A stretch of DNA of 64,000 nucleotides from assembly GCA_002869615.1 (NCBI GenBank), contig PKUH01000004.1:62001-126000 (forward strand). The letters are read 5' to 3'. Every line of letters starts with the position of its first letter. The first letter of the stretch is position 1. The translations under genes and the position numbers were made by a program. Positions 1 through 4,749 of the stretch are shown in pieces. The stretch comes from Desulfuromonas sp. Its GTDB lineage: Bacteria > Desulfobacterota > Desulfuromonadia > Desulfuromonadales > UBA2294. The notes under the pieces are model-generated. The model did no database searches and had not been told where the DNA came from. It saw only the letters and a program-made list of their open reading frames with translations.

Positions 1-1535
1 GGATCCTCTACCGTCAGGCTGTCAACCAGGAGCATCAGCGGTTGATAGATGAGAACGTCGAGTTTCATGCAATCCTCGCCCAGTATCGCAAATGTCTTGA
101 CTTGCTGAAGGTCGATGACCTTGATCGACTTGGCGATCTGATTCTTGACACCCTGATGGAGCTTTTGTCGGCCGAGGGGAGTGCCCTCTGGCTGGCTGTT
201 GACGGACAGGATTTTTTGCTCCGCTGCCGACGAGGGCTGGCGCGCATTCGGCCGAACGAACAAAGCTTCAATCTCGGAGATACGCAATGGCAAATGGTTC
301 GCTCCGGGCAATCCCGGTTGCAGGGCGAAGACCGGATTGTCGTGGTGCCGCTTGAATACAACGGAACACCGCTCGGGCTGGTTCGCATCGAGTCCCCGAT
401 CGGCCGGTCCGGCTTTAACCGCCAGGATCTGCGTGTTTCCGAGCTGGTCGCCGACTTTTCCGCCAGCGCCCTGAATAAGGTCCTGCAGATTCGCGCCCTT
501 GAACATAGTTCCCTGCATGCCAGTCGTGATGAGGCCTATAGTATGGCCTTCTTCAGGGATTACGCCGCCAAGGAGTTCTACAAGGCCCGGCGTTACAATC
601 GCCAGCTCTCTTATGTCAGGCTGGTGGTCGATAATATGGATCAGGTTAAAAGTCTTTTTAACCAGCGTGATCTGGATGCGGTTCAGTCCCGCATGCTTGA
701 TCTGGTCAACGCGGTGTTGCGCGACGCCGACATCATTGCCATGCATTCGGACAGCAGCTACAGTATCCTCTTGCCCGAGACCGATTATTGGGGTTCGCTG
801 GTGACCCAGAAGCGGATCCGCAAGGCGATTGAGGGCGAGTTGAAATTGAGCAACATGAAACGGGAACTGAATTTTGACGTTTTTCTCCGTTCGTCTTCAT
901 ACCCGGCCGATGGCGCGACGCTGGAAGACCTGGAAGCGGCCACTGAAAACCGGTTACAGCGCCTGCGGACCAGCCTTTTTTATAAAAGCAATCTGGTCCG
1001 ACTCGATTTCTGGTCAATTTTTAACCGGGTGCTCGGCCGCCCCGGTGAAGTCAGGACGGTCGACGGGAAGCTGATTGTCTCAAGTGATCTGAAGAAATTT
1101 GAATCACCGATCCGCAGTCGTTTTATTCGCGTACCGGCCGAGAGGTTGGATGAGATCGCCCGGGCCCTTTGCCGCGAGGTTGTTGAAGCGAGCCGGGTAC
1201 GCGGTATTATCTATTGCGGCTGCGCCGATTTTGAGGCGATGCGTCGTTCTCTCCGCTATGTTGATCAGCTCGAGAAAACCGAAACATCATTTTTTATGCT
1301 TGGCGGCAACAAGAGGGCGAACTGGGATATGAACCATGTCGTACCAATTCATATAGATGACCGGAATTTTCTGCAGAATGCGTTTCTCCTCTACATGAAT
1401 GAAGATTATGCTTATGCCATGCTGGCTCGTCGGGTCGGGGACGAGCTGATCGGCTTTCATTCTTCGGATTTCTATTTTGTCGAGAATATGATTGCCAAAC
1501 TTCAGGAACAGTATCAGTTGAGGTCACAAATCTAG
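1..1535 (+). CDS. GAF plus degenerate GGDEF signalling protein (5' end outside window)
   Basis: Cytoplasmic signalling protein of unknown role. The frame is open to the left edge (codons from base 3 read ILYRQAVNQEH), so the true start lies outside the window and the TTG at 42 is not needed as a start. A GAF-like sensor region covers roughly the first 150 visible residues. It is followed by a diguanylate-cyclase fold in which the GGDEF motif is replaced by SDSSY just before ILLPET, so cyclase activity is very unlikely. The last 190 or so residues match nothing I recognise. The next gene starts 3 bases after the TAG stop, so the two are probably co-transcribed. Confidence 0.8.
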   Translation, partial: ILYRQAVNQEHQRLIDENVEFHAILAQYRKCLDLLKVDDLDRLGDLILDTLMELLSAEGSALWLAVDGQDFLLRCRRGLARIRPNEQSFNLGDTQWQMVRSGQSRLQGEDRIVVVPLEYNGTPLGLVRIESPIGRSGFNRQDLRVSELVADFSASALNKVLQIRALEHSSLHASRDEAYSMAFFRDYAAKEFYKARRYNRQLSYVRLVVDNMDQVKSLFNQRDLDAVQSRMLDLVNAVLRDADIIAMHSDSSYSILLPETDYWGSLVTQKRIRKAIEGELKLSNMKRELNFDVFLRSSSYPADGATLEDLEAATENRLQRLRTSLFYKSNLVRLDFWSIFNRVLGRPGEVRTVDGKLIVSSDLKKFESPIRSRFIRVPAERLDEIARALCREVVEASRVRGIIYCGCADFEAMRRSLRYVDQLEKTETSFFMLGGNKRANWDMNHVVPIHIDDRNFLQNAFLLYMNEDYAYAMLARRVGDELIGFHSSDFYFVENMIAKLQEQYQLRSQI

Positions 1536-1538
1536 ATT

Positions 1539-3020
1539 ATGGCGTTTGCGCAACAGAAAATACTTCTCGCTTCCTCAAGCGGATTATTCGATCCGATGGA
1601 AGGGCTGTTACAGCAGTCCGGTTTCAAGGTTTCGAAGTGTTCTGATGGCGCACAGGCTCTTGAGATTGCTTTGAAAGCCAAGCCGGAACTGATGCTGGTC
1701 GACACCGCCATACCTGTACTGCCGGCCGACAAGCTTGTCCAGATCCTCCGGTCCAACAGCAAGACCGAACTGAACTCGATTTTCTTTATCGGTCCGGATG
1801 GCGAACAGATCGAAGGGTTCCGCAACAAGATCGACCGCTATGTGCCGCGGCCGTTTAACAATGAACAGCTGCTCGCTGAAATTCTGACCTTTTTCAGCCG
1901 GCGCGAAAAAAGTGAGCAACTCGGCAAAACCCGCACCGAGGTCGAGGGCGATCTGAAACAAATCTCTCTTCCCGATCTGCTGCAGATCTTTTCGCATAAT
2001 CGTAAGGACGGGGTTCTGGCCCTTTCAAACAACAAGAAAAAGGGGTATATCCATCTTCTCGAAGGGCAGGTTGTCAGTGCCAGGATCGGCCGGGTTTCTG
2101 CGGAAAAAGCATTCTTTCGGCTTCTTCTCTGGGATTTTGGCAAGTTCCGGTTTACACCCGGAAGTCCGCAAATTGAGAATCATATCGATCTGGCGACGGA
2201 TCAGCTGCTGCTCGAGGGGATGCGCCAGAACGATGAAATGCTGGCTCAGATGTCGACTTTCCCGGCAGCAGACAAATTGCTTGAACTGGCTGTTCCGCCG
2301 GAGCACCTGCCGAAAGGATTGCGTCCGGGAACCCTCGAGATCATTGAGTTGCTCGATGGCGAAACACATGTTTCGCATATTGTTGACAATAGTCCCCGGA
2401 CCGATTATGAGGCGTTGCAGGTTCTTCGGGCACTTCTGGAAAAAGGGGTTCTCAGGGAAAGCAGAAGTGAAAAAGACGAGATTGGTGAGGAGAGCGTTCT
2501 GCTGAACAGTGAGGAAGTTGTTTCGATCAAGGACTTTTTCGGCGAAAGCGATGCACTGCTCGAAGAATCTTCGGCCAAGCTGATTGTTCTTGCTGAAAAT
2601 GATGCACAGGCCGCGGCTTTCCTTCAATCACTACAGGGGATTGACGAGTTTGAACCGGAACCCGATTTTCTGCAGGGTGGTGCTGATCTCGCCCTCGGTG
2701 ATATCGGCCGTCTTGATATTTCGGATAAGTTCCATCTGCGGCTTTTTCTGCTCCCGGCCGGTGATGAATCGGCACCTTTCTGGCGACCGTTCTGTCACCG
2801 TCTTTTCGGAGTCCTGTCCCTGGCCAGAGACGAATCTTTACAGGATGCCGAAAAATATTTTTTTGAAACTGCCCATGTTCCGGTGGCAAAATATCGCGAT
2901 GTTGAGAACTTTGATGGTATTCTGCCTTTACGCCGCGGTGATCGACTCGGGCTGCGAAAACTGCTGCATTACTTTGCTGTCCGGTTTACCGGGAGCGAAA
3001 TCGAGGAGACAATAATATGA
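1539..3020 (+). CDS. Receiver-like / PATAN (DUF4388) / pseudo-GTPase signalling protein
   Basis: 493 residues in three parts. Residues 1-120 have a receiver fold: the phospho-acceptor Asp remains (LMLVDTAIP), but the acidic pair is missing (ILLASSS) and the switch Lys is Arg (YVPRPF). Residues 130-220 are a PATAN/DUF4388 domain (GDLKQISLPDLLQIF; GVLALSN). The C-terminal 150 residues line up with the Ras-like GTPase domains that follow DUF4388 in related bacteria, but the P-loop is gone (KLIVLAENDAQA) and the DxPG position reads LLPAGDE. It is probably a scaffold or sensor rather than an enzyme. It overlaps the next gene by ATGA. Confidence 0.75.
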   Translation: MAFAQQKILLASSSGLFDPMEGLLQQSGFKVSKCSDGAQALEIALKAKPELMLVDTAIPVLPADKLVQILRSNSKTELNSIFFIGPDGEQIEGFRNKIDRYVPRPFNNEQLLAEILTFFSRREKSEQLGKTRTEVEGDLKQISLPDLLQIFSHNRKDGVLALSNNKKKGYIHLLEGQVVSARIGRVSAEKAFFRLLLWDFGKFRFTPGSPQIENHIDLATDQLLLEGMRQNDEMLAQMSTFPAADKLLELAVPPEHLPKGLRPGTLEIIELLDGETHVSHIVDNSPRTDYEALQVLRALLEKGVLRESRSEKDEIGEESVLLNSEEVVSIKDFFGESDALLEESSAKLIVLAENDAQAAAFLQSLQGIDEFEPEPDFLQGGADLALGDIGRLDISDKFHLRLFLLPAGDESAPFWRPFCHRLFGVLSLARDESLQDAEKYFFETAHVPVAKYRDVENFDGILPLRRGDRLGLRKLLHYFAVRFTGSEIEETII

Positions 3021-3658
3021 TCGACCTTCACACTCATACATTGTTCAGCGATGGGGAACTGATACCGGCCGAGCTGACCCGACGGGCCGCGGTGATCGGC
3101 TATCGGGCTATCGCTCTGACCGATCACGGGGATCTGTCGAACCTTGACTTGATTATTCCGCGAGTTGTCCGGGTTGCCGATGATCTTTCAGCGCAGTGGG
3201 GGCTCAAGGTTGTTCCCGGGATCGAATTGACCCATGTTCCGCCGGCCCAATATGAAGAGGCGACGGTTGAAGCCCGCAAGCTGGGAGCCCGAATCGTTAA
3301 TGCTCACGGCGAAACAATTGTTGAGCCGGTCGCACCCGGGACAAACCGGGCCGCACTTGAGGCGGGGGTTGATATTTTGTCCCATCCCGGGCTGATCAAC
3401 GATGATGATACTGCCTTGGCTGCCGAAAAGGGGATCTGCCTGGAGATTACGACCCGCAAGGGGCACAGCCTGACCAATGGTCATGTTGTGCTGATGGCCA
3501 GGAAACATGGTGCCAAGCTGGTCATCAATAACGACGCCCATGCGCCCGGTGATCTGCTCAAACCGGAGTTGATTCACCAGATCGCACTCGGTGCCGGAAT
3601 GACCGAAGATGATATCGCCAGGGCCCTTAAAAATTCGGAAGCCCTGGCCGGTATATAA
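3017..3658 (+). CDS. PHP-domain phosphoesterase, histidinol-phosphatase type
   Basis: 213-residue metal-dependent phosphoesterase of the PHP family. It starts with the metal-binding DLHTHTLFSDG motif and carries the further ligands in ALTDHGD, PGIELTH, NAHGE, SHPG and NNDAHAP. It is a stand-alone PHP domain with no polymerase or DNA-binding part. Histidinol phosphate is a common annotation for such proteins, but no his gene is nearby and the substrate is open. The ATG overlaps the previous stop (ATGA), so translation is coupled. The M42 peptidase follows after 23 bases. Confidence 0.85.
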   Translation: MIDLHTHTLFSDGELIPAELTRRAAVIGYRAIALTDHGDLSNLDLIIPRVVRVADDLSAQWGLKVVPGIELTHVPPAQYEEATVEARKLGARIVNAHGETIVEPVAPGTNRAALEAGVDILSHPGLINDDDTALAAEKGICLEITTRKGHSLTNGHVVLMARKHGAKLVINNDAHAPGDLLKPELIHQIALGAGMTEDDIARALKNSEALAGI

Positions 3659-3681: not shown

Positions 3682-4749
3682 ATGGATGATAAAGCTATTG
3701 AACTACTGAAGGAACTGGTCGAGGCGCCGAGCCCGTCCGGTTATGAACAGCCGGCACAACGGGTTTTCCGCAAGCACGTCGAACCGGTCGTTGATTCACT
3801 GCAGACCGATGTAATGGGTAATGTGATCGGCCGGGTCAACGCGGCCAGCGCCGATGCAGCAAAACTGATGCTGGCCGGGCATTGCGATGAAATCGGCTTC
3901 ATGGTCAAGTATATTGATGAAAACGGGTTTCTCTTTTTTGCCCCGATCGGCGGTGTTGATGCCCACCTGGTCCCGGGCCAGCGCGTCAACGTTCATACTG
4001 CGACCGGCCCGGTCCGGGGGGTGGTCGGCAAAAAACCGATCCATCTGATGGATCCGAAAGAACGGGAATCGGTGGTCAAGTTCAAGGACCAGTTCATCGA
4101 TATCGGATGTTCCGATAAAAAGATGGCTGAGAAACTCGTCGCAATCGGTGATCCGGTCACCTTCTCGGTCGGGCTTGAAAGACTGCAGGGGGAGCGGGTG
4201 ACCTCACGCGCTTTTGATGACAAGATGGGGGCCTGGGTTGTTGCTCGTGTCTTGCAGGAGGTCAGTAAAAAAACGCCGCCGGTTCATTTCTACGGGGTCT
4301 CAACCGTACAGGAAGAGATCGGTTTGCGCGGCGCGACGACCAGTGCATTCGGTATTGATCCGGATATCGGTATTGCTGTCGATGTCACCTTCAGTTCCGA
4401 TACACCGGGACTTAATATGATGGAAATTGGTGAGTTGGAGCTTGGCAAGGGACCGATTATCGCCCGGGGTGCCAATATCAATCCGACCCTTTTTGATCTG
4501 CTTGTGACAACAGCCAAAGAAGAGGCGATTCCGTACCAGGTCAGCGGTATGCCGAGAGCAACCGGTACCGATGCCAATGTTATCCAATTGGCGCGCAGCG
4601 GCGTAGCGGCCGGACTGATCGGTGTGCCTTTACGTTATATGCATTCGCCATCCGAGGTGCTGTCTCTGGCGGATCTCGAAAATACAGTACGATTGCTGGT
4701 CGGACTTATCTACCGAATAGAGTCAAAAAACATGTTCATCCCGAACTGA
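3682..4749 (+). CDS. M42 family metallo-aminopeptidase
   Basis: 355-residue cytoplasmic dizinc aminopeptidase of the M42 (tetrahedral aminopeptidase/FrvX/YsdC) family, which trims short peptides. Metal and catalytic positions are visible: H in LAGHCDEIGFMV, D in AFDDKMGAW, paired Glu in VQEEIGLRG, D in AVDVTFSSD and the late H in YMHSPSEV. Length is normal for the family. It follows the PHP gene closely and ends at an inverted repeat that probably terminates this unit. Which peptide or conjugate it cleaves cannot be told from sequence. Confidence 0.9.
   Translation: MDDKAIELLKELVEAPSPSGYEQPAQRVFRKHVEPVVDSLQTDVMGNVIGRVNAASADAAKLMLAGHCDEIGFMVKYIDENGFLFFAPIGGVDAHLVPGQRVNVHTATGPVRGVVGKKPIHLMDPKERESVVKFKDQFIDIGCSDKKMAEKLVAIGDPVTFSVGLERLQGERVTSRAFDDKMGAWVVARVLQEVSKKTPPVHFYGVSTVQEEIGLRGATTSAFGIDPDIGIAVDVTFSSDTPGLNMMEIGELELGKGPIIARGANINPTLFDLLVTTAKEEAIPYQVSGMPRATGTDANVIQLARSGVAAGLIGVPLRYMHSPSEVLSLADLENTVRLLVGLIYRIESKNMFIPN

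Follow-up and report, generated by a model that had tools for sequence, protein, structure and literature searches.

The window analysed here is a stretch of 64,000 nucleotides from Desulfuromonas sp. (contig PKUH01000004.1, positions 62,001 to 126,000 of the forward strand). At its start lie two adjacent genes, here termed A and B, followed by genes for a PHP-family phosphoesterase and an M42-family aminopeptidase. The window truncates gene A, which begins 349 bases upstream (contig L011) and encodes a complete protein of 627 amino acids. The features are:

3..1535, + strand: protein A, in-window part (residues 118-627); response regulator with receiver (REC), GAF, degenerate GGDEF and C-terminal domains; AlphaFold pLDDT 87.4, pTM 0.58
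117..473, + strand: GAF domain of A, residues 156-274; matches Pfam GAF_2 with E 8.8e-6, just below the curated cut-off
519..974, + strand: degenerate GGDEF domain of A, residues 290-441; Pfam GGDEF and fold match
720..731, + strand: RxxD (R357-D360), corresponding to the c-di-GMP I-site of PleD and PelD in the alignment to solved GGDEF domains
747..761, + strand: SDSSY, residues 366-370, replacing GG(D/E)EF in the same alignment
813..815, + strand: R388, equivalent by residue spacing to the third I-site arginine
984..1532, + strand: C-terminal alpha/beta domain of A, residues 445-627; unassigned, kept along with the pair
1539..3020, + strand: protein B, 493 amino acids; pseudo-receiver, PATAN, linker and putative Ras/Arf-like pseudo-GTPase domain; AlphaFold pLDDT 82.4, pTM 0.46
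1539..1898, + strand: pseudo-receiver of B, residues 1-120; Pfam E 1.9e-6, fold match with Z 18.3 and rmsd 1.8 over 118 residues
1944..2237, + strand: PATAN/DUF4388 domain of B, residues 136-233; Pfam PF14332, E 5.8e-25
2256..2468, + strand: small, mainly helical linker of B, residues 240-310; AlphaFold secondary structure
2556..2993, + strand: putative Ras/Arf-like domain of B, residues 340-485; element order and weak Arf profile matches
3017..3658, + strand: PHP-family phosphoesterase gene; a neighbour, not counted in the A-B pair
3682..4749, + strand: M42-family aminopeptidase gene; a neighbour only

Three bases separate the stop of A from the start of B, and the start of the PHP gene overlaps the stop of B by 4 bases, in the window as in 23/51 loci. 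The genes around A are those for M48, a PH-like protein, miaB, B, PHP, M42 and guaB. Upstream of the M48-miaB region is what we take to be an ExbB/ExbD/TonB-like gene set (L011:2411-5551).

Protein A consists of a receiver (residues ~1-120), a long helix, a GAF domain (~156-274), a further helix, a GGDEF fold (290-441) and a C-terminal alpha/beta domain (445-627). The receiver, encoded outside the window, matches Pfam with an E-value of 7.9e-22 and has Asp10, Asp54, Thr82 and Lys104. Among proteins of the near set (see below), Asp10 is found in 25/25, Asp54 in 22/25 (Glu in the other 3) and Lys104 in 23/25, and by residue content the receiver looks phosphorylatable in most of them. Pfam GAF_3 matches A in 22/24 relatives at E<=0.1. 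Judged by length and profile coverage, the composition of A varies between REC-GAF-GGDEF-C, GAF-GGDEF-C, REC-GGDEF-C and GGDEF-C; every form has the dead GGDEF and the C-terminal domain. The shortest form, of 322-348 amino acids, has neither receiver nor GAF, and phosphorylation is thus not a universal input. A profile of the C-terminal domain finds a match in 33/297 genomes of the phylum; Pfam and PDB searches gave no assignment for it. DICT (PF10069) was considered and rejected (best E 0.11, in 1/32; nothing over cut-off in 247 genomes), and hemocyanin matches were judged to be due to chance.

The GGDEF fold is confirmed: Pfam GGDEF matches A in 24/24 relatives at E<=0.1 (best 1.6e-11), and over residues 290-441 of the A model VIA-align matches GGDEF domains with Z about 20. 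A profile built from 24 A domains was aligned with solved GGDEF domains. In this alignment, SDSSY falls exactly under GG(D/E)EF and RDAD under the RxxD of the I-site, while the metal-binding Asp position of the first strand is occupied in A by Val325. We take R388 to correspond to R390 in PleD numbering. Across the A proteins with coverage, GG(D/E)EF occurs in 0/54, the nearest being AGDDF (n = 3), and Asp at the metal position in 5/53; R357 and D360 are present in 54/54. The R388 position is Arg in 25/25 near proteins and Arg (17) or Lys (12) in the 29 distant ones, i.e. Arg in 42 and Lys in 12 overall. Two proteins (L057, L244) contain too little of A to be scored, hence 54 of 56, and the metal position is covered in one fewer. 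On these sequences, A appears to have lost its catalytic site and retained its I-site, and the retention is suggestive of c-di-GMP binding. By itself, however, it weighs little because ordinary GGDEF domains often have RxxD, those of two of these genomes having it in 25/28 cases (GG(D/E)EF in 26/28; 28 of 30 loci parsed, L335 and L337 being left out), and because other columns of A (L374, P375, T377) are conserved to a degree close to that of RxxD. The motif may thus have a structural role in A. A further GGDEF domain in the same genome, L337 (G000:C40:9941-10381), has lost its signature (YDDNVL) and kept RxxD.

Protein B has a nearly constant make-up. In its receiver, the window protein has lost the acidic pair and has Arg104 in place of the Lys; the phospho-acceptor Asp55 is retained. 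In 30 distant relatives, the first acidic place is Asp in 20/30 and the Lys is present in 17/30. Since distant relatives often keep these residues, their loss belongs to the window's order. The PATAN domain scores 88.1 bits against a cut-off of 25 for PF14332, which matches B in 25/25 relatives at E<=0.1; the domain is missing in 1/30 distant relatives, a short B of 328 amino acids that keeps the receiver and last domain (L263:5494-6480, G394). Two further receiver-PATAN proteins, of 472 (L276, G168) and 558 amino acids (L277, G111), are related to the front part of B; the DNA fetched around them gave no miaB match, and they are a possible source of B.

The last domain of B is harder to place. 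Its order of strands and helices, in an AlphaFold model made with 25 sequences, fits a small GTPase. When a profile of 32 diverse relatives was searched against the PDB, most of the 32 matches at E<=10 were Arf GTPases, aligned over the PLW...G stretch with E-values of 0.03-0.6 (best 0.028); these count as one weak signal because the Arf sequences are related to each other. No Pfam GTPase family matched any of 32 B members, hhalign of the domain against MglA was negative, and hmmsearch of 970 open reading frames, MglA included, gave no signal except at the pair-bearing locus L290. Arf-family matches, MglA among them, are found in 13/13 genomes and are uninformative. With whole models, Foldseek and VIA-align lists were filled by receiver or GGDEF matches, so a lack of matches there to the final domain of either protein carries no weight. 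From element order and the Arf profile matches, the domain likely has a Ras/Arf-like fold. The nucleotide-binding motifs are missing: the P-loop GxxxxGK(S/T) is found at the beta1-alpha1 position in 0/56 B proteins (one chance match lies elsewhere, in L256), and NKxD is absent from the last 120 residues in 56/56.

An earlier note, made from the window alone, had described these genes as neighbouring signalling proteins built of inactive enzyme folds. Its reading of a GGDEF fold with SDSSY in the first gene is confirmed by the alignment to solved domains; the full gene, starting outside the window, adds an intact-looking receiver and a GAF domain that it did not mention. Because A has this phosphorylatable-looking receiver, the pair would not be inert throughout. 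In B, the PATAN domain was correctly named, and the loss of the acidic pair and Lys from the receiver holds, with the qualification that Asp55 is kept. The Ras-like fold that it proposed is plausible; the absence of P-loop and NKxD from that domain is borne out.

We then considered how the pair is distributed. Full-length B is carried by 24/58 close genomes (the near set) in 25 copies, and A adjoins B in 25/25. There, within the limits of each contig, the genes run miaB-A-B-PHP-M42-guaB. One genome, G047, has two copies of this arrangement on separate contigs (L062 on C140, L063 on C129), which reflect either a duplication or a mixture of strains. Profile searches of 244 genomes of the class found 24 with A, and 23 of these also have full-length B; in the remaining one (G017), A is cut at a contig end. 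Among 297 genomes of the phylum, the C-terminal domain of B was found in 31, one of them dropped as noise (G276, E 0.002, in a frame with stops). In the distant genomes fetched, A and B are adjacent in 30/30, miaB lies upstream in 26/26 loci where the contig reaches, and PHP is present in 26/29. Conservation of the pair and of its order extends far beyond the window's class.

We examined 21 genomes that lack the pair, 12 of which have PHP; in 12/12 of these, miaB and PHP are separated by a gap of 2-235 bases. This adjacency indicates that the pair comes and goes as a unit. A MiaB tree was built with 71 rows (8/79 loci had no usable MiaB), and on it the pattern of presence and absence requires at least 10 changes, 4 of them forced by starred branches; the pair-lacking genomes in this tree come from the class only, and L275 (G017) was scored as present on A alone. 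In genera g3 and g8, some members have the pair and others do not. A and B are thus gained or lost as one unit, which argues that they work together. With GG(D/E)EF in 0/54 A and the P-loop in 0/56 B proteins, the inactivity of both folds is old and the motif loss, as far as sequences can tell, ancestral. The proposal of the earlier note that the two genes form a non-catalytic ligand-sensing or scaffold pair is strengthened by this ancestral loss, by the conserved order and by the joint gain and loss. Relatives at the same locus with intact active sites, which it had named as evidence for recent decay, were not found for the GGDEF and GTPase-like folds, nor was a lack of co-occurrence; they were found in part for the receiver of B, as counted above. 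Together, these results indicate that the pair is real, old and conserved, that it is undescribed as far as our searches reach (no published description was found in the open-licence literature of PubMed Central), and that it is a variant of the dead-GGDEF-receptor theme with an unusual partner.

What might such a pair do? We give about even chances to a reading in which A is a c-di-GMP receptor of the PelD/BcsE kind, tuned by phosphorylation, and B is its adaptor, the two making one non-enzymatic signalling unit. A would be a response regulator, presumably dimeric, in which phosphorylation of the receiver, and possibly a ligand of the GAF domain, would act through the long helices on the GGDEF fold. 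The latter would no longer synthesise c-di-GMP but may bind it through the retained I-site residues R357, D360 and R388. The C-terminal domain would pass this state to B through a putative A-B contact. B would be a protein-binding adaptor, its Arf/Ras-like domain presumably unable to bind nucleotide in the usual way, and its PATAN domain the likely output towards a putative target, on the model of PATAN regulators whose target is the pilus motor PilB. PixE is such a regulator, binding the pilus motor PilB1 (PMC9090330), and in Myxococcus two PATAN proteins are listed among those that co-occur with SgmX (PMC11580455). PilB itself is over cut-off in 62/64 genomes, whether the pair is present or absent, and is uninformative on a link to the pilus. 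More tentatively, the pair could be a phylum-wide, hitherto undescribed two-protein c-di-GMP relay, in which a phospho-tunable dead GGDEF receptor uses a novel C-terminal domain to signal to a PATAN adaptor with a bacterial Arf-like pseudo-GTPase as interaction module; we would not expect this full version to hold, while regarding it as a genuine possibility.

A second reading, which we consider possible if rather doubtful, is that A and B are a purely structural or protein-sensing scaffold, in which RxxD would be retained for folding only, nucleotides would not bind, and the signal would come from phosphorylation of the A receiver together with either a ligand of the GAF domain or a partner protein. 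The frequency of RxxD in ordinary GGDEF domains, the near-equal conservation of the neighbouring LPETD and the lack of nucleotide motifs at the expected place in every B protein all point that way. Against it, R357 and D360 never vary among A proteins whose signature motif has changed freely along its entire length, and the solved precedents keep RxxD for c-di-GMP: PelD (GAF and dead GGDEF; PMC7112168) and BcsE (dead REC-GGDEF; PMC7439463) are each described as binding c-di-GMP through this motif and signalling to a partner.

The earlier note had also suggested that the output might concern PHP and M42. We find it improbable that the pair regulates the downstream PHP phosphoesterase, with or without the M42 peptidase, even though it is probably co-transcribed with them: the 4-base overlap between B and PHP occurs in the window and in 23/51 loci, and PHP follows the pair at most pair loci. 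PHP nevertheless stays next to miaB in all 12 pair-lacking genomes that have it, three pair loci (L254, L257, L265) have other genes downstream instead of PHP, and BLASTP found no M42 match at the distant pair loci L243-L272. As PHP persists without the pair and the pair exists without PHP, the tight coupling suggests shared transcription and not a shared task. At L254, L257 and L265, the place of PHP is taken by a 233-residue protein and a protein of ~750 residues starting WHMHQPYYKDP, the latter presumably resembling glycoside hydrolase 57.

Residual catalysis by the GGDEF fold of A, as reported for a Vibrio cholerae AGDEF protein (PMC3974145, which describes an active enzyme), finds some encouragement in the three A relatives that read AGDDF; we think it very improbable given the SDSSY of the window protein, its Val at the metal position and the rarity of Asp there. 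That ordinary enzymes decayed recently in a single lineage is hardly credible, and is contradicted for the GGDEF and GTPase-like domains, for although the B receiver looks intact in part of the distant relatives, the frames of the pair are open with 36-67% identity across the order, no catalytic GGDEF or GTPase-like motif is found anywhere in the phylum, and A and B are lost jointly, not piecemeal.

Dead enzyme folds are known as sensors singly, in PelD and BcsE, whereas in this case a pair of them is maintained as one unit, at a constant genomic position, in much of the phylum. Because some species of a genus have the unit and others do not, it lends itself well to genetic work. Should A bind c-di-GMP, many of these bacteria would have one more receptor that is not annotated as such and, if the fold of its last domain is as proposed, B would be an unusual bacterial pseudo-GTPase.

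Among the known systems closest to A is PelD, the c-di-GMP receptor of Pel secretion, its GAF-GGDEF structures 4eu0 and 4dmz being matched by Foldseek at E about 4e-8. PelD starts with membrane helices where A has its N-terminal receiver, and A has one more domain at its C terminus and is encoded behind miaB and outside any pel operon. Both proteins have a GAF domain followed by a GGDEF fold that has lost its signature, with RxxD and a third Arg at similar spacing (PMC7112168). BcsE, a receptor of cellulose secretion, resembles A in combining REC and a dead GGDEF in one protein, in its RxxD and in having a dedicated partner (PMC7439463). The BcsE receiver is degenerate whereas that of A looks intact, and A differs further by its GAF domain, its different C-terminal domain and its neighbours, which are not bcs genes. 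Turning to B, the domain order of PixE is different, the receiver of B coming first; the receiver of B is moreover degenerate, and its last domain is the putative Ras/Arf-like one. Like B, the cyanobacterial PATAN-REC regulators, PixE and its relatives, have PATAN and receiver in one protein (PMC9090330). MglA and Arf share with the last domain of B the order of elements, and the PLW stretch aligns to Arf; unlike them, B is without P-loop and NKxD, the likeness is under significance and the comparison with MglA was negative. Finally, the dynein light intermediate chain, a eukaryotic analogy drawn without sequence comparison, uses a Ras-like fold as an adaptor or linker (PMC4359372), much as the last domain of B may do.
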